Below, piece by piece: positions 23,802-57,806 of a DNA stretch of 58,264 bases (the first letter of the stretch is position 1; every line of letters begins with the position of its first letter). The position numbers were made by a program, and so were the translations under genes. Source of the stretch: Armatimonadota bacterium (GTDB lineage Bacteria; Armatimonadota; Fimbriimonadia; Fimbriimonadales; Fimbriimonadaceae); the NCBI GenBank assembly GCA_020438215.1, contig JAGQUX010000017.1, forward strand, positions 1 to 58,264, written 5' to 3'. The notes beneath the pieces are model-generated. The model ran no database searches. It was not told the origin of the DNA and saw only the letters and a program-made list of their open reading frames with translations.

Positions 23802-24518
23802 ATGAAGATTTCAAAAGTCATTGCAACGACCATCAGCCTGCTCGCCATCGCGAGCCAAGGCTTAGCCGCGGATGCTTTCGATAAATCCGTAGCAAACATT
23901 GCTCTGTTGCAAATCAAAGAAGTGCAAACCGATGTCGGCATCACCGCTGCGCAACGCACCCAATTGAACAAGCACGCCGATTGGTTCAACGCCGAAAGCA
24001 AAAAGATCAACGACCAAGCTGCAACCTATGTTCAGAAGAATCAGCAACCGCCAAAGAGCCTCACCGATAAATTCGTCAAGCTCAACAACGATATGGCGAA
24101 CAAGGTCGTGGGCGTTCTCACCGCTGGTCAACTCAAGCGACTCCGCGAGATCACCCTCCAAAACGCTGGCCCCGTCGCAATGATGGATCCCACCGTCGCT
24201 AAGAAAATCGGCCTCTCCGATTCTCAACTCAAAAGCATCCGCTCCCGCTTCGATTCCGACGCAAAGAAGGCGGATGGAATCCAAGAAAAGGCTTTCAAAC
24301 CCATCATCGACAAGTACAAAGCGAAAAAGCCAAAGGATGATGCCGAAGCCAAAAAGCTCAGCGAAGCCTACGCAAAAGAAATGGACGCCGCAGGCAAGAA
24401 AATCGCTCCGCAACTCAACAAAATCCAGAGCGATTTCTCCGCATTTCTAAAGAAGACTCTCAGTACCAAGCAAGATTCCGCTTGGAAAGCCCTCCTGGGC
24501 AAACCGTTCAAAGGCTAA
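23802..24518 (+). CDS. Secreted helical protein of unknown function
   Basis: 238 residues: a clear signal peptide (MKISKVIATTISLLAIASQGLA), then a Lys/Ala-rich, mostly helical mature protein. It contains repeated segments of the type GITAAQRTQL, GVLTAGQLKRL and GLSDSQLKSI. These resemble the LTxxQ helices of Spy/CpxP-like periplasmic proteins, as seen in many planctomycete and armatimonad exported proteins, but the assignment is weak. A GAGAGAG ribosome binding site lies just before the ATG. A strong terminator-like hairpin follows the stop. Confidence 0.7.
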   Translation: MKISKVIATTISLLAIASQGLAADAFDKSVANIALLQIKEVQTDVGITAAQRTQLNKHADWFNAESKKINDQAATYVQKNQQPPKSLTDKFVKLNNDMANKVVGVLTAGQLKRLREITLQNAGPVAMMDPTVAKKIGLSDSQLKSIRSRFDSDAKKADGIQEKAFKPIIDKYKAKKPKDDAEAKKLSEAYAKEMDAAGKKIAPQLNKIQSDFSAFLKKTLSTKQDSAWKALLGKPFKG

Positions 24519-24539: not shown

Positions 24540-24592
24540 AACGCTCGTCAGAAAGGTGATGATCTCCACCCTTTTGACGAGCGTTCTTTTTG
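24540..24592 (+). terminator. Intrinsic-terminator-like hairpin containing the next gene's start
   Basis: AACGCTCGTCA (24540-24550) pairs perfectly with TGACGAGCGTT (24575-24585). A weaker inner stem (GG/CC and AA/TT) follows, and the sequence after the hairpin is CTTTTTG. It terminates the upstream secreted-protein gene. The loop contains the GTG (24556) and ATG (24559) starts of the next gene, so it could also act as an attenuator. Confidence 0.7.
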
Positions 24593-25236
24593 TTAACCAG
24601 AACTTCGACCGCATTGACCCCGCCGAAACCTACGGCAAATCCGCCCACGAGATCGTCAAAATGGGCCACGAAAAGTGGTTCGATTTCTACACCAACGCCG
24701 AGGAAGGCGGGCAATCCACAATGGGGATGTCCTACGCCAACATGTACTTTGGCACCGCCATGCGCCAAGTCAATAACGAACGCATGGCCGGAAACGAAAA
24801 GCTCGAGGAAAAGTCCGCTTACCTCCGCAAAAACCTCGACCAATTCCACTTCAATATGATTGATGTCGGTCGCGCCTTCACTGGCGGAGGCACCCTCTGG
24901 AACCTTGTTTCCAGCAGCGTCCGCGCAAATACCGAAGAGGTCATCCTCAGCTTCATCGAGCAATCCTCTCCCAAACCGCCCCGCACCCAAGCCGAAGTCT
25001 GGAAGATGATCGGTGAAACAGAAAAGAACCTCACCGAAATGAAGAGCGAAATCGACGAAACAAAGGGCATGACCGGACTCACTTACGATGAAGTCCGACT
25101 CTCCCTCGCCAACGGCAAGATCATGTTCGCAGGCGCAATGAAACAAATCGCTTCCTGGCCCTCCAACGAGCGCAAAGCGGTCATCACCGGCTTCTATGAT
25201 GCCGTCAATGATGTCAATTTCATGTCCGGTGAGTAG
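24559..25236 (+). CDS. Hypothetical protein, possibly exported
   Basis: About 225 residues with no recognised family. The first residues (MISTLLTSVLFVNQ) could be a short signal or anchor; the rest is soluble and helical with conserved-looking HEKWFDFYTNAEEG and a long charged helix (EKNLTEMKSEIDETKG). The start is ATG 24559 or GTG 24556, with GAAAGG just upstream. Both lie inside the loop of a terminator-like hairpin, so initiation may depend on RNA folding. No later ATG occurs before residue 35. The function is unknown. Confidence 0.6.
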   Translation: MISTLLTSVLFVNQNFDRIDPAETYGKSAHEIVKMGHEKWFDFYTNAEEGGQSTMGMSYANMYFGTAMRQVNNERMAGNEKLEEKSAYLRKNLDQFHFNMIDVGRAFTGGGTLWNLVSSSVRANTEEVILSFIEQSSPKPPRTQAEVWKMIGETEKNLTEMKSEIDETKGMTGLTYDEVRLSLANGKIMFAGAMKQIASWPSNERKAVITGFYDAVNDVNFMSGE

Positions 25237-32001: not shown

Positions 32002-32611
32002 GGAACTTCTTCAAAAGCTCAGCTTCGGAATCACCAGGATTCAATTCCAAAACGCGATCCAAAACTTTCAGTGCTTCAGATTGCTCACCCGTCTGAATCA
32101 GAATCCGAGCTTTGTAGACTAAGCAGTTCAGGTTATCTGGTCCGAGTTCAAGAGCTTTATCAACCCGCTCCAATGCCTCGTCATAATCTCCCCGCGCAAA
32201 GGAGATATTCGCCAGATCGTAATACATCGTGTTACGAATCTCGTTCTCCGCGCTCAGCAATACCGCCGACCACTGATTCACCCCTTCCAGAAGAGCTTTT
32301 TCCGCTTCATCTTCCCGATCAAGAGCCAGCAGTGTCCGTCCCTTCAAAGCGAGGATTTGCGAGCTTGTCGGTCGGAATCGATAAAGCTCCTCAATAATGG
32401 GAAGTGCCTTCTCTAAATCAGCTTTCTGCTCTGCCGTCCGCTCAACACCCTGCGCATAAGCCAGAATCCCAGATTCTGTCAAAGGCTGTACTTTCTTGAT
32501 CCCTTCGTCGTACTGACCAAAGTTCGTGATAACGTTCGGGTCGGTGCCCATACATCCGCCAATGCCGAGCATCAAAGCTCCCATCAGAACAAGGTTAGTT
32601 CGCGACCACAT
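31964..32611 (-). CDS. TPR-repeat lipoprotein
   Basis: 215 residues from ATG 32611. A lipoprotein signal peptide ends in GIGGC (lipobox), so the protein is envelope-anchored. It holds at least three TPR units, for example YYDLANISFARGDYDEALERVDKALEL followed by VYKARILIQTGEQSEALKVLDRVLEL. TPR lipoproteins act as assembly scaffolds. It starts 17 bases inside the end of leuS, so it is probably co-transcribed with it. The specific role is unknown. Confidence 0.82.
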   Translation of the reverse strand: MWSRTNLVLMGALMLGIGGCMGTDPNVITNFGQYDEGIKKVQPLTESGILAYAQGVERTAEQKADLEKALPIIEELYRFRPTSSQILALKGRTLLALDREDEAEKALLEGVNQWSAVLLSAENEIRNTMYYDLANISFARGDYDEALERVDKALELGPDNLNCLVYKARILIQTGEQSEALKVLDRVLELNPGDSEAELLKKFLKTSQGSEAASP

Positions 32612-35339
32612 TGACCAGTTTCCCCGGCACAACGATGACCTTTCGCACCGTCAAGCCGTCTGTAAACGATTTTACTTTCTCGCTGGCCAGAGCCGCCTGT
32701 TCGAGTTCATCGTTCGCGGTACCCGCCGCGACTTCCAACGTATCTCGCAACTTGCCGTTCACCTGCACGGCAATCGTGACCTTGTCTTCCTTCGCCAGTT
32801 CCGCGTTCGCCTTCGGCCAATCTAGCTGGTAGGTAAACCCTTTGCCACCCAGTGCCGACCAAATCTCATCGGCAGAGTGAGGGGCCGCTGGAGCCAAGCA
32901 AACCACTAGCGATTCCATCGCTTCACTCAGAGCGAGCTTTTCACCTTCAGTAGGTGATTTCATCCCCTTCATCAAGTCATTGAGCGTATTGACCGTCGTC
33001 ATCGCCGCGGCAATGTAGGTATTGAACGCAAACTTTTCAATATCATCCGTCGCTTTTGCGATGAACTTGTGAGTGGCACGCCGGATATCGGTGGACTTCC
33101 CATCTGGAATTGTCGAACCGATCTTGGACTTCCAATCTGCATCAAAATTCGGGGCGATTTCGGAGGCCAAGCGGAAAACCCGGCTGAGGAACCGAACCGC
33201 GCCTTGCATACCCTCATTTGACCATTGCACGTTTTGCTCAAACGGGGCCACGAACAGTTCGTAGATACGGAGCGCATCCGCGCCGTACTGCTCGACCGCC
33301 TCTTCGGGAGTGACCACGTTGCCCTTAGATTTCGACATCCGCACCCAACGCCAGTCCAGGTCGTTCTCAGGCATGTCCTTGGCGTCTTCAAAGCTGACGA
33401 GGATGCCATCCTCACCCACCCCCAGCGTCTCACCTTCGTGCGGTTGTCGGTAGGGAGTCAAAGCCAAAACCTGGCCCTGGTTCATGAGCCGCTGGAACGG
33501 CTCTTTCACATCCACCAAACCAAGATCGAACAGCACCTTCGTCCAGAAACGGGCGTACAACAGGTGCATGACGGCGTGTTCGGCTCCACCCACATAGCAG
33601 TCCACCGGCATCCAATACTTCACCTTCTCAGGATCCCAAGCTTGTCCGGTGTTATGCGGGTCGCAGAACCGCAAGAAGTACCAACTTGAGCAAGCAAACC
33701 CGCCCATCGTATCGGTTTCGCGCCGCCCCAAACCACCATCGTTGGTGGTGGCATTCACGAACTCTTCGATATGCGAAAGAGGGCTCGAACCGTCGTCACC
33801 CGGAGCATAGTTCTCAACATCGGGAAGCATGACGGGCAGAGCGTCATCCGGCACAACATCCGGGTGACCGTCCTTGTCATAAACCACCGGGATCGGGCAA
33901 CCCCAATACCGCTGTCGAGAAATCAACCAATCCCGGAGCTTGTAGTTGATCTTCCGCTCACCAATCTCAGCCGTTTCGATAAAATCAGCAAGTGCTTGGG
34001 AGCCTTGCTCGCTGGTCATGCCATTGAATTCGTTCGCATTCACCATCACCCCGGATTTCGCATCAAAAACGGGATCGAATGTCTTTGCATCCTCCAAGTA
34101 GCGAGCCTTGGTGGTCTCCAGATTCTCTCCTTCTTCCGCGAACGGTTTTAGGTAATCAGTGTCCGGCTCAAAAGTCGGGATGACATCCAGCCCGAACTTC
34201 ACCGCAAACTCAAAGTCGCGCTGGTCATGAGCCGGAACCGCCATGATCGCACCCGTTCCGTAACCCATCAATACGTAATCGGCAATAAAGAGGGGAACTC
34301 GATTATCGTTCGCCGGATTGATGGCATAAGCCCCGGTGAAGACGCCGGTCTTCTCTCGGTTGGCAGCCTGCCGATCCATGTCGCTCAGAGCCTTCGCCGA
34401 TGCCTGATACGCTTCAATCTCACTCACGCGCTCCGCGTCAACACTCTGCTTGATCGTGCGAACCAAAGGATGCTCCGGTGCCAGTACGCAGAACGTCATC
34501 CCGAAGATCGTATCAATCCGAGTGGTAAAGACCCGGAAACTCGATGCCTTCTTGTTGGATTTGACTTCAAACCCATCCAATCCAGAATCTTCGGCGGGGG
34601 CAACAGCAGGATCACCATCTTTTGAGAAAGTGATCTCCATTTCAAACTCAACCCCTTCCGAACGACCAATCCAGTTGCGCTGCAAAGCCTTGATTCCTTC
34701 CGGCCAGTCCACGGTATCCAGATCATCAATCAGTTGCTGAGCGTATTCCGTGATCTTGAAAAACCACTGCGGAATCGCTCGCTTTTCAACCGGAGTGCCG
34801 CATCGCTCGCAGAGACCTCCAACAACCTCTTCGTTGGCCAGTGCGGTCTTATCTTTTGGACACCAGTTGATTTCGGCATCCTTCCGATAAGCCAAGCCCT
34901 TCTCATACAGCTTCTTAAAAATCCACTGCGTCCATTTGTAGTAGCTGGGGTCAGAGGATTTGAAGCTCCGCGACCAGTCATAGCCAATCCCAATCAGCTC
35001 CATCTGATCCTGATAGCGCTTGGCGTACTGGTCAATCATCGGGGCAGGGTGCGACTGCCGCTTGATCGCCTCATTCTCTGCCGGGAGCCCAAACGCATCA
35101 AACCCCATCGGGTGAAGCACGTTGTAGCCCTGCATAAACTTCATGCGGCAGAGGACATCGGTGGGGATGTAGTTGCGGCAGTGCCCGACGCTCAGGCCAG
35201 CACCGCTCGGATAAGGAAAAAAGTCGAGACCATAGAACTTCTCGCGATTTAGATCTTCGCGCGTGCGGAAGAGGTCAGCCGTCTTCCACCGTTCGCGCCA
35301 TTCCGATTCAAAATTCGAGGGTTCGTAACGATCGTTCAT
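32595..35339 (-). CDS. leuS: Leucyl-tRNA synthetase
   Basis: 914 residues, a bacterial-type class I synthetase that charges tRNA-Leu. The HIGH-like motif is in YPSGAGLSVGHCRNYIPTD, followed by HPMGFDAFGLPAENEA. The zinc region is WCPKDKTALANEEV..LCERCGTPVEKR. The CP1 editing domain includes FTTRIDTIFGMTF and GYGTGAIMAVPAHDQRDFEFA. KMSKS appears as RMSKSKGNVVTPEE. The N-terminus NDRYEPSNFESEWRERW fixes the ATG at 35339. That ATG lies inside a perfect 12-bp inverted repeat, so translation may be structure-controlled. Confidence 0.97.
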   Translation of the reverse strand: MNDRYEPSNFESEWRERWKTADLFRTREDLNREKFYGLDFFPYPSGAGLSVGHCRNYIPTDVLCRMKFMQGYNVLHPMGFDAFGLPAENEAIKRQSHPAPMIDQYAKRYQDQMELIGIGYDWSRSFKSSDPSYYKWTQWIFKKLYEKGLAYRKDAEINWCPKDKTALANEEVVGGLCERCGTPVEKRAIPQWFFKITEYAQQLIDDLDTVDWPEGIKALQRNWIGRSEGVEFEMEITFSKDGDPAVAPAEDSGLDGFEVKSNKKASSFRVFTTRIDTIFGMTFCVLAPEHPLVRTIKQSVDAERVSEIEAYQASAKALSDMDRQAANREKTGVFTGAYAINPANDNRVPLFIADYVLMGYGTGAIMAVPAHDQRDFEFAVKFGLDVIPTFEPDTDYLKPFAEEGENLETTKARYLEDAKTFDPVFDAKSGVMVNANEFNGMTSEQGSQALADFIETAEIGERKINYKLRDWLISRQRYWGCPIPVVYDKDGHPDVVPDDALPVMLPDVENYAPGDDGSSPLSHIEEFVNATTNDGGLGRRETDTMGGFACSSWYFLRFCDPHNTGQAWDPEKVKYWMPVDCYVGGAEHAVMHLLYARFWTKVLFDLGLVDVKEPFQRLMNQGQVLALTPYRQPHEGETLGVGEDGILVSFEDAKDMPENDLDWRWVRMSKSKGNVVTPEEAVEQYGADALRIYELFVAPFEQNVQWSNEGMQGAVRFLSRVFRLASEIAPNFDADWKSKIGSTIPDGKSTDIRRATHKFIAKATDDIEKFAFNTYIAAAMTTVNTLNDLMKGMKSPTEGEKLALSEAMESLVVCLAPAAPHSADEIWSALGGKGFTYQLDWPKANAELAKEDKVTIAVQVNGKLRDTLEVAAGTANDELEQAALASEKVKSFTDGLTVRKVIVVPGKLVNVVAN

Positions 35340-35369
35340 CCCGAAAAGGTTTTACCCTTCGGGATGAAC
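35334..35369 (-). promoter_or_regulatory. Hairpin sequestering the leuS start codon
   Basis: GTTCATCCCGAA (35334-35345) and TTCGGGATGAAC (35358-35369) are perfect 12-base complements around a 12-base loop. In the leuS mRNA the AUG (35339-35337) lies in the 3' arm, paired with CAU in the 5' arm. No T-run follows, so this is not a simple terminator; a translational control role is inferred. Confidence 0.6.
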
Positions 35370-35391
35370 TGAGGCTAGGATTCGGGGGAAT

Positions 35392-37653
35392 CTACTGCGC
35401 CGGAGGTGGGGTTCCGCCTCCGCGCCCTCCGCGCCGGATTGTTTGTTCTCGACCACTATTTCTCAAATAAGCGTTTTCATAGTCCGCGTAATAACGGTCG
35501 ATCTGCGCCCGTGTGGAACCTTTGAGTGCGTCGTAGCTACCAAAACCGCCTTGTGCTTCCACGCCGTCAGCCCCTTCAGAAAGTCGAACTTGATCGTAGG
35601 GCAACAGGGTCGCACTGATTGAGATGTTGCTCGTATTCAAGAACTGCTTAAAGAATGACGGGTCGTTCACCCCCGCTCCGCGAGGATTGTAGGCTGCATT
35701 TGCCTTGTTTCTAGCGTAAGACCGAGCATCAAAGATTTGTGATTCGCCATTTTGCGAATTCAATGCTACAAAACCATCTCGACTGCTCATTGAGAACCGA
35801 AGCGATGTCGCGCTACTCAAGCCCGTGGGAAGGAGTTCGGTCCTTTCCATATTGCCAGCAATTGTTATCTGAGCACCATTGATAACCGGAACTCGACTTC
35901 CGGCTTGCTGTAGCCCTTGAACTTCAATGAAACCCCGATCAACAAGCGTAATGTTGTTCAAGGATGTGGTTCCTCCCGGCGAGGCGGCTTGCACTACGTA
36001 GCTCGGGTCGCGGCGACCGTTGTAATACCAATCCGTGAGAAGTTGATAAATTCCGCTGATCTGATTCCATGGCAAGCCACTACTGGTGGCCGCTTGTTTT
36101 CGCTGATCTGCACTCAATGCACCATAAATCATCAGAGGGAAGTAATCGTTGCCATGCACATCCCGGATTTCTTGCCCCGCCGAAGTGCCAAAGAGCCAAG
36201 ACATCGCCCCCGTATCCCAATTGTCCGTTCCAATCCCGCGCCCAGCGGCTCTTGCATAAGACGCCTTATCGGAAAGGCTAACGAGCCCGTACTGGCGAGA
36301 AACTTTCTGCTCGAGCGCATACAGCGTCCCACGCGGAACCCGCGTACTCCAAGCTGAAATCGGATCAGCCAGCCCCATCACCGACCAATCCCCTTCTTTC
36401 TTGAAAGTCACTTCATCCCAAGTCTTTGCCGTGGAGTTCAAATTATCTCGCGATGCATCCCAGGCTAGCTCACTCGCCATGTGGTCTGGAAAAGCAATGA
36501 CGTAGTTATCCGTCGTCATCTGATCGACGAACGCGTAGTCCACCAACGTCGCTACGGGATCAAGCTTGGTCTGTCCCAAGAGGATGCTCCGAGCACCAGG
36601 ATCAATCCCACCAACAAACGGAAGCATTGCGGGGTCGTTGGTGCGAGCTTTGTCGGCCGTATCTTTACCCCAAGTGTTCCGCTGACCTGCAAATCGGCCT
36701 TGAACAAAGGCCGCCGCAACCTGCTTTGCTGCCGTTCCATATTCATCAAATTTGAAAAACGGCTGATTAAAAGCGTGATTCGAAGAACCGGTGCCACCTA
36801 ATTGCAGTGTCCGCGATGCCGAACTCATTGTTTGCATATTGGCCCCCAGCAAATACATATCAATGCGAACGGAATCGATGTCTCGGACAACCGTCACCAA
36901 AATTTCTGGATTACCCGCGTTGATCGCAGCCGTGAGCACTGCATCATTCCGAAAGGCGCGGAACTGCCCTGGACGTGAATTAGCCGGAATCTTTTGAAGT
37001 TCAAAGAGCGTTCGGCGATAGTCGCTCACCAACTGGTTTGCCACTCGCTTCATCGCGTTCGACATGAACTTCTGCCGTGAATTAGGCGAAAGCGAATAAA
37101 CCCATCGTTCGTTCAGAGGCACGCTAGCCCAAGTTGCTGGATCTTCATCTCGAAGTAGAATCGGCAAGGCTTGATCCGCGAATGTAGCCGAACTTTGACG
37201 CGCACGCGGATCAGCCAAAAACGTTTGTAAAACCGCAACCGAATCAATCTTCTCGCCTGCATTCTTTACATAGGAGTCCGCATCAAGTGTTGTCTTGATT
37301 TTGCCGCCAATAACACTTTTGTGGCGCTCCGTCAAAGCAGGCGTATTGCCTTCAGATCGAACGACCAAATAGCCATCGCCGCTCCCAAGAAAACCGAGCC
37401 CTGTCGCATCAGCAATCTTAGCGATCACCTCCGACATGGGGCGATCCTTCACTCGCAACGAGATAATTTCATCCGCGCAGATCGGTGAAACATCAATCGG
37501 GACACCATGACTCGCCTTCAAATCAGCAAAAAACTGTTTGAGCGTCTGTCCCTTACTAGAAATCGTGACTGGCTGATTCCAGTCATAAGCCTGCAGCGAG
37601 GCGGCAACCACCGCCAAGCAAGCCACTACGGAGAGTTTTCTCAGTCCGTACAT
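35392..37653 (-). CDS. Large secreted protein with an STN-like N-terminal domain
   Basis: 753 residues from ATG 37653, with GAGGAT 9 bases upstream; a TTG at 37668 is less likely. A signal peptide (MYGLRKLSVVACLAVVAASLQA) is followed by a secretin/TonB N-terminus-like unit (about 25-95): VTISSKGQTLKQFFADLKASHGVPI and LRVKDRPMSEVIAKIADATGLGF. The remaining 650 residues match nothing I recognise and end in a Gly/Arg/Pro tail. STN domains occur in secretins and TonB-linked sensors, but no secretin or barrel domain follows. It may be an armatimonad-specific exported family. Confidence 0.75.
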   Translation of the reverse strand: MYGLRKLSVVACLAVVAASLQAYDWNQPVTISSKGQTLKQFFADLKASHGVPIDVSPICADEIISLRVKDRPMSEVIAKIADATGLGFLGSGDGYLVVRSEGNTPALTERHKSVIGGKIKTTLDADSYVKNAGEKIDSVAVLQTFLADPRARQSSATFADQALPILLRDEDPATWASVPLNERWVYSLSPNSRQKFMSNAMKRVANQLVSDYRRTLFELQKIPANSRPGQFRAFRNDAVLTAAINAGNPEILVTVVRDIDSVRIDMYLLGANMQTMSSASRTLQLGGTGSSNHAFNQPFFKFDEYGTAAKQVAAAFVQGRFAGQRNTWGKDTADKARTNDPAMLPFVGGIDPGARSILLGQTKLDPVATLVDYAFVDQMTTDNYVIAFPDHMASELAWDASRDNLNSTAKTWDEVTFKKEGDWSVMGLADPISAWSTRVPRGTLYALEQKVSRQYGLVSLSDKASYARAAGRGIGTDNWDTGAMSWLFGTSAGQEIRDVHGNDYFPLMIYGALSADQRKQAATSSGLPWNQISGIYQLLTDWYYNGRRDPSYVVQAASPGGTTSLNNITLVDRGFIEVQGLQQAGSRVPVINGAQITIAGNMERTELLPTGLSSATSLRFSMSSRDGFVALNSQNGESQIFDARSYARNKANAAYNPRGAGVNDPSFFKQFLNTSNISISATLLPYDQVRLSEGADGVEAQGGFGSYDALKGSTRAQIDRYYADYENAYLRNSGREQTIRRGGRGGGTPPPAQ

Positions 37654-37729
37654 ATTGAAGATCCTCAATTAACTGGGACGACCGGTACTAGCCTAAGTAT
37701 CAGTGAATCTTTTCTTTGTTCCGTGTTGG

Positions 37730-43473: not shown

Positions 43474-43511
43474 AAAAATCCCCGAAGATACAGAGCCTTC
43501 GGGGATTTTTT
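43474..43511. terminator. Bidirectional intrinsic terminator
   Basis: AAAAATCCCCGAAG and CTTCGGGGATTTTT are 14-base perfect complements around a 9-base loop, with A- and T-runs at the outer ends. It separates the convergent ABM and cytochrome genes and should stop transcription from both sides. Confidence 0.92.
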
Positions 43512-56425: not shown

Positions 56426-56443
56426 TCTGGAATCTGAATAACG

Positions 56444-56476
56444 AAAAGCGGCTCACTCAGTGAGCCGCCTTTTTTT
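56444..56476 (+). terminator. Intrinsic terminator after the EEP gene
   Basis: GCGGCTCAC and GTGAGCCGC pair perfectly around a TCA loop, followed by C and seven T (56470-56476). AAAA precedes the stem, so it may also serve the convergent membrane-protein gene. Confidence 0.92.
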
Positions 56477-57806
56477 AGTACGTGGGTACCCCGGTGAAGG
56501 GGAGTATCCGGTCGGTTCTTAGCGCAAATGCTTGCATCAGAATCACGATGGTGTAGACGTTGAGGACGGCGTAAAGCCCCGCCCATATCCACACGGCCTT
56601 GCTCCCCCAAAGCCTGACAAGTCCAGCCGCCATCAGTGTCGCGATAAACCCGAGCCCTGGGAAGAGATAGCGTGCTTGGGGCTGATCGTATGTCATGTTG
56701 AACCGGTAGAAACTTGCCGCCACCAAGAGGAGAAAGAGTCCGGTGATCATCATCCCCCATTTCTTGCCGGAATACCAAAGCGAGAGTGCCCCGATCACCA
56801 GAATGATTGCCGCTAGATGAACTGCGGTCAATGGAATCCAAGTGGGATAGTGGATATCAAAATAGCCAAACACCCCGGTCGAAGATTCTGCTGTCGCTTC
56901 TGTAGTGGTCAGGAGCCAACGCGTCATTGCAAGGGACGAGCGCGTGGGCGGGAGCCGCTGCGGCGCCCACGCTTTGCTAAACGCATTGAGCAGAAGCGGT
57001 TCGCCATAAACCTGCATGTTCTTTTGCCACCATGGAGCAGGAATCAGAACAGCAAGAACAACGATAAATCCAGTGAACTTACGATTCTTGATTGCCGCCC
57101 AAACTGCCGCAACCAGAAGAGGAACCATGATCAGGATTCCCGTGGATTTGGTGAGCATCGCTAGTCCGGCAAAAACGGTACTGAGAAGCAAATAGGTGAT
57201 GTTCCAATCCCTATCCTTCGCCCAAAACAAACTGCCAAGACAGGCGCTACAAAGGGTGATGAGCAACGGGTCATTGCTGATCGCCGCACTCAGCGCAACA
57301 TTCATGGGGTTAAGAGCTACGATGGCCGCTGCTCCGATAGCAATCCATTTCTCCCGACTTATCTTCCATGCAATGAGCGCAACAGCAATCACTCCAAATG
57401 CACCGATCAAGCCGTTGAAGTTACGTGCCGCAAAACCGGCTTCTCTGTCTTCAACTGATTCAAACCCGCGTGCCTTCAAGTACTTTGCGGTCAGAACATA
57501 AAAGAGCGGCGGTTGATGTGCCTGGAATCGCTCTAAAAAATCAGGCTCTCCAGGCTTGAGGTTAACATCATCTTCTGGTGTGCCGAGGATGGGGAAAGGC
57601 TTGCTTTCCAGCGCGTATTGCACCATGTTTGCATGGGCACGCTCATCTGGCGCTCCAATATCCCGGAGGTATGTACTCCGTGAAATGCCGGATTCCCGGT
57701 AGGGAATGACGTGTGAGTAGGCAATGGCGAGAAAAAGATGAAGGAGGGCAAAAAAGAGAACGCCCCAGACGAACTTGCGGTTTGCCTTGGGCGTCAATTC
57801 CTCCAT
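56475..57806 (-). CDS. Polytopic GT-C-type glycosyltransferase-like membrane protein
   Basis: 443 residues with about ten membrane helices. The first outside loop has the acidic GAPDERAHANMVQYALE and FQAHQPPLFYVLTAKYL, the pattern of GT39/DUF2142-like GT-C transferases, where the Asp-Glu binds metal and lipid-sugar. Later loops show NPMNVALSAAISNDPLLI and PWWQKNMQVYGEPL. It may transfer a sugar from a polyprenyl carrier on the outer face of the membrane. The acceptor is unknown. It follows the truncated gene after 18 bases and shares its direction. Confidence 0.8.
   Translation of the reverse strand: MEELTPKANRKFVWGVLFFALLHLFLAIAYSHVIPYRESGISRSTYLRDIGAPDERAHANMVQYALESKPFPILGTPEDDVNLKPGEPDFLERFQAHQPPLFYVLTAKYLKARGFESVEDREAGFAARNFNGLIGAFGVIAVALIAWKISREKWIAIGAAAIVALNPMNVALSAAISNDPLLITLCSACLGSLFWAKDRDWNITYLLLSTVFAGLAMLTKSTGILIMVPLLVAAVWAAIKNRKFTGFIVVLAVLIPAPWWQKNMQVYGEPLLLNAFSKAWAPQRLPPTRSSLAMTRWLLTTTEATAESSTGVFGYFDIHYPTWIPLTAVHLAAIILVIGALSLWYSGKKWGMMITGLFLLLVAASFYRFNMTYDQPQARYLFPGLGFIATLMAAGLVRLWGSKAVWIWAGLYAVLNVYTIVILMQAFALRTDRILPFTGVPTY

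Follow-up and report, generated by a model that had tools for sequence, protein, structure and literature searches.

In bacteriophage T4, a structure that forms in the long early RNA of gene e blocks translation about 100-fold, whereas the late RNA, which is made without the 5' part, is translated (PMC3014915). A similar start-hiding hairpin has been described for I-TevI (PMC2988022). These T4 hairpins hide the Shine-Dalgarno site and serve phage timing. In the fold-back protection of IS10/Tn10, the start codon is hidden in read-through RNA but not in the element's own transcript, and what is guarded is the transposase of a mobile element. Genes translated without a leader carry a mark of their own: a TANNNT motif about 12 bp before the start, which acts as promoter and as a sign of leaderless genes according to reports on Deinococcus-Thermus (PMC12340547) and on a wider range of bacteria (PMC3160421).

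How does the start of leuS in an Armatimonadota genome compare with these systems? The DNA analyzed here is a single stretch of 58,264 nt (the window) from an assembly of 2.64 Mb; it carries a gene for leucyl-tRNA synthetase, editing domain included, whose start codon lies in a hairpin (Table 1). By sequence geometry alone, the junction has the T4-type arrangement of gene e and I-TevI, in which the start would be paired in transcripts arriving from upstream, while a promoter adjacent to the start would give RNA without the 5' half of the structure. Unlike those genes, leuS is a chromosomal housekeeping gene with no Shine-Dalgarno site, it is probably leaderless, and the loop of its hairpin is the −10 box itself; unlike IS10/Tn10, the junction involves no mobile element. 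The box is the same promoter and leaderless sign as in the −10-motif genes, but the available text of the two papers on them (PMC12340547, PMC3160421) describes no hairpin around the motif. A place upstream of an aminoacyl-tRNA synthetase gene recalls the T-box, but there is no room for a leader and no match in Rfam. A long stem that closely follows a stop codon and lies where two units meet recalls the intrinsic terminator, but the leuS hairpin has no U-tract and extends into the codons of the next gene.

The nearest named relatives of the leuS product are from Armatimonadota, one of them a Fimbriimonadaceae record. Relatives agree with the leuS start from residue 1, in keeping with the statement of a first-pass annotation of this DNA that no better start is available. 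The upstream gene on the same strand is separated from leuS by a 52-nt junction. Across the genus, for which eight genomes were compared, this neighbor keeps its place beside leuS while its sequence has strongly diverged, and its matches there are mostly partial, at 23–27% identity.

Table 1. Features at the leuS junction, in coordinates of the window
Feature	Position	Strand	Remarks
leuS, leucyl-tRNA synthetase	32595..35339	-	914 aa; probably leaderless
leuS start codon ATG	35337..35339	-	within 3' arm of hairpin
Hairpin	35334..35369	-	5' arm 35355-35369, loop 35349-35354, 3' arm 35334-35348 (minus-strand sense)
TAAAAC, probable leuS −10 promoter box	35349..35354	-	exactly the loop; 9 nt before AUG
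Spacer	35370..35391	-	22 nt; from upstream-gene stop codon to hairpin
Upstream same-strand gene	35392..37668	-	758 aa; no Pfam match; stop TAG at 35392-35394

The core of the hairpin consists of GTTCATCCCGAA (35334-35345) and TTCGGGATGAAC (35358-35369), exact complements with a 12-nt gap between them, just as the first-pass annotation had described its perfect 12-base inverted repeat. To these 12 perfect Watson-Crick pairs the minus-strand RNA fold adds three inner ones (two G-U and one G-C), giving a stem of 15 pairs and a loop of 6 nt, with about −24 kcal/mol for the hairpin alone and a folding z of −2.67 for its 101-nt context. The ATG (35339-35337) is paired in this computed fold, in agreement with the earlier description of an AUG buried in the 3' arm. 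The whole window contains just two perfect stems that reach 12 bp with a loop of at most 20 nt, against a mean of 0.25 per Markov-shuffled window; the second is at 43474-43510. That site and 56439-56477 are strong hairpins with an A-tract and a T-tract between convergent genes, apparently two-way terminators.

As expected of an intrinsic terminator, the G+C-rich stem of 15 pairs comes soon (22 nt) after the upstream stop. A U-tract directly 3' of the stem is found in none of the seven species that have the hairpin; in the window the 3' arm is followed, in leuS sense, by GATCGTTACG, which contains no T-run, as had been noted before. A search of the hairpin region with Rfam covariance models returned no known leader, riboswitch or T-box, which agrees with the earlier impression that this was neither a T-box nor a familiar leader. 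The sole match was a chance-level snoRNA (E 4.3; 13 bits, where the gathering score is 40).

Where might transcription of leuS begin? The box in the loop ends in C in the window and so is not a strict TANNNT; in the six other genus members with the hairpin, the loop holds TAAAAT, 6–7 nt ahead of the ATG. Across related loci, TANNN[TC] stands at a gap of 5–11 before the leuS start in 30 of 36 cases, compared with a background of 10% at shifted positions. We looked for a −35 box at the leuS promoter and saw none. In 1.6 Mb of the related genome G002, as in a first 400-kb sample of it, TANNNT peaks 6–9 nt before mechanically called starts, with 27 occurrences at gap 6 in the 400-kb sample against a background of about 6, and a Shine-Dalgarno-like stretch is present at only 19% of starts. 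leuS likewise has the TANNNT-like box some 6–10 nt before the start codon that characterizes leaderless genes, and it is probably one of them; its main transcript should then start no more than a few bases from the AUG and be without the 5' arm. A search of the available literature turned up no account of leaderless genes in Armatimonadota. Because the loop is the −10 box, the gene's own mRNA should not include the 5' arm, and the only RNA that the hairpin could affect would be RNA arriving from upstream.

We propose that the hairpin is a boundary element, keeping the leuS start concealed in RNA that reads through from the neighboring gene, and that it is not a sensor switch, a reading we regard as probable, with considerable room for doubt. 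Within the 52-nt junction, two same-strand units would share the hairpin as their boundary: it would serve the upstream gene as its 3'-end hairpin and, on the leuS side, overlap both the leaderless promoter and the start codon. RNA reading through from upstream would contain both arms, fold and conceal the AUG; it might also be terminated at the hairpin, or be shielded there from 3' decay. RNA from the leuS promoter, we infer, would start downstream of the 5' arm, at or near the AUG, leaving the start free, and leuS output would then be set by that promoter alone. Since no species has a U-tract after the leuS hairpin, start occlusion is more plausible than termination as the conserved role; for the same reason termination at this site is doubtful, though the genus does use U-tract terminators (137 of 1,467 gene ends at a score of at least 20, and 0 in shuffled controls).

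How well is the hairpin conserved? As a measure we used an ungapped stem score, which replaced a count of enclosing pairs in minimum-energy folds on which random positions did as well. The stem over the leuS start scores 27–35 in seven of the eight genus genomes. The remaining member, G001, scores 10, and no other genus sampled exceeds 20, the leuS-type hairpin being absent from all of them. Among random positions, 0.7% score at least 26 and 0.4% at least 28. The arm sequence changes from species to species (GTTCATCCCGAAGGG in the window, CTCGCATCGGTTTA in G007, TACCGATCACGCCTTGG in G005, CGCGCACCGGTTTG in G003 and CTTTTGTGGGGGCTA in G002), and the two arms change together. When 5' arms are swapped between species, most swaps outside close pairs score 6–18, compared with 27–35 for native arms; the one clear exception is the G007 arm, which pairs in G003 equally well as G003's own. 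When the arms are aligned in the register proper to each species, pairs form in 88 of 98 cells, and most columns show two to four pair types. Codon 2 of leuS takes the forms AAC, CGA, CGT, CGC and AGA and is matched by the 5' arm every time. The seven species represent five distinct sequence forms, so that the effective sample behind this covariation is about five. Judged by these scores and swaps, the leuS hairpin is not a product of chance. The search for covarying arms in relatives that the first-pass annotation had suggested thus turned up compensating changes, and its own potential objection, that the arms might not be conserved, does not apply.

We then asked where such hairpins stand. 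The survey took in 1.6 Mb of G002 (~58%) and 0.8 Mb of G006 (~27%); each leaderless-candidate gene there was scanned from the upstream stop to the start plus 26 nt. Strong hairpins were present at 38 of 200 same-strand junctions whose upstream gene ends 25–120 nt away but at only 1 of 183 divergent junctions (p about 1e-10), in junction classes that contain errors because gene starts were called mechanically. For hairpins that cover the start with a score of at least 24, the corresponding figures were 9 of 199 and 0 of 218 (Fisher p 0.001). Taken over all candidate starts, start-covering hairpins show no excess relative to random places; the excess is found at same-strand junctions only, and among short junctions they are a minority. 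The boundary claim rests on this contrast between same-strand and divergent junctions, together with conservation. The surveyed hairpins begin mostly 10–30 nt past the upstream stop regardless of junction length, and in short junctions these end hairpins spill over the promoter and start of the next gene. In the species measured, the leuS hairpins begin 8–32 nt past the upstream stop; these distances were measured separately and used in place of the automatic upstream-gene scan, which is unreliable at cut leuS loci.

Start-covering hairpins also trade places with an ordinary terminator or another hairpin clear of the start. In G001, which has no hairpin at the leuS start, the junction measures 134 nt and contains a U-tract terminator, GCCAGCCG...CGGCTGGC followed by ATTTTTCTTTTT. 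A second case is the gene for a protein of ~790 aa starting with VVS (L173-L178, match at 1501), where a hairpin of 15–16 pairs surrounds the −10 box and the GTG lies in the 3' arm. This hairpin occurs in G002, G004, G003, G007, G005 and G006, its sequence changed between species, while G001 and G000 have a separate upstream hairpin clear of the start (in G000, as read by eye, AACCAGTT-TTTG-AACTGGTT). A lipoprotein gene whose product starts MAR (L222-L225, match at 1501) has a start hairpin in G002, G004, G005 and G006. In several of these start hairpins the 3' arm enters T-rich downstream codons, such as ATGGCGCGGTTTTTTGTTTTG in G006, and such cases appear to be terminators within the frame of the following gene. 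For leuS this is not an option, because the codons at that place must encode Asp-Arg-Tyr. The rnhC gene (L236, L237, L243) has a start hairpin in three of eight genus members, with one form shared by G005 and G006 and another in G000, a patchiness from which it follows that start-covering hairpins come and go. A small G002 gene (129 aa, MHHDLITLNK) with a similar hairpin has no relatives in the genus.

Elsewhere in the window, at 24540-24585, a 19-pair hairpin (AACGCTCGTCAGAAAGGTG-ATGATCTC-CACCCTTTTGACGAGCGTT, then CTTTTTGTT) lies 21 nt past the stop codon of 23802-24518, where it overlaps the predicted start of the next gene, 24556-25236. It reads as a terminator inside the next frame and is not conserved in relatives.

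Is the leuS hairpin, then, simply the terminator of the upstream gene, reaching into leuS and hiding the AUG as a functionless side effect? We consider this unlikely, though it deserves serious weight. The position past the upstream stop fits gene-end hairpins, a U-tract terminator stands in for the hairpin in G001, and two further hairpins that cover a start continue into T-rich downstream codons. A missing U-rich tail is moreover no rarity: at closely spaced convergent ends, strong hairpins have a T-rich tail in 62 of 98 cases and none in 20. Against it, none of the seven species has a U-tract after the leuS hairpin, and the arms follow the leuS codons closely, though a terminator could stay upstream of the coding region. 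The first-pass annotation had set aside a terminator of the upstream gene; the absence of a U-tract bears this out, but by its place and context the hairpin acts like an upstream end hairpin, and to that extent the dismissal went too far.

The same annotation had favored a sensing translational switch on leuS mRNA, that is, a leadered transcript whose hairpin would open in response to a charging signal, to temperature or to a protein. The fully paired AUG and a stem kept with covariation in the genus would suit such a device. It overlooked, however, that the loop itself is a −10 box, from which an mRNA lacking the 5' arm is expected, and this weakens the switch; a transcription start inside the hairpin that removes this arm, which the annotation had itself named as fatal to its idea, is probable. 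The arms contain no conserved sequence of the kind expected for a ligand or protein site, neither the T-box nor any other Rfam family matches, similar hairpins cover unrelated genes, and the leuS hairpin is missing from the other genera sampled. We therefore rate a regulated switch as highly improbable. Still less probable is an element acting as DNA, in which promoter opening is tuned by the dyad surrounding the −10 box, through extrusion or the binding of a regulator: its symmetry is centered on the −10 box, but the arm sequences differ wholly between species, unlike a fixed operator, and such hairpins are absent from all 218 divergent leaderless promoters surveyed, where a promoter-intrinsic element would be expected. 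A functionless palindrome arising by chance or mutation (template switching) has the slimmest prospects of all, for although long hairpins over candidate starts are no commoner genome-wide than at random positions, this one has been kept with matching arms in seven species and five sequence forms.

A boundary element, concealing the leuS start in RNA that reads through, thus remains our preferred reading, and it corrects the sensor-switch reading to which such a repeat tempts. More tentatively, and as a possibility to which we lend rather less than even credence, a ~35-nt element of this kind may serve at several junctions of this genus, combining the end hairpin of one gene with the leaderless promoter (loop) and start codon (3' arm) of its downstream neighbor. 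Translation would then be open only to transcripts initiated within the hairpin, and the 5' arm would co-evolve with the first codons. A leaderless gene offers neither a leader for regulation nor a Shine-Dalgarno site that could be masked, and the shielding of such genes from read-through RNA appears to be little discussed in the available portions of papers on them. If the proposal is true, placing the promoter in the loop and the start in an arm of one hairpin would provide insulation in about 35 nt, and codon 2 of leuS would evolve jointly with the non-coding sequence upstream of it.
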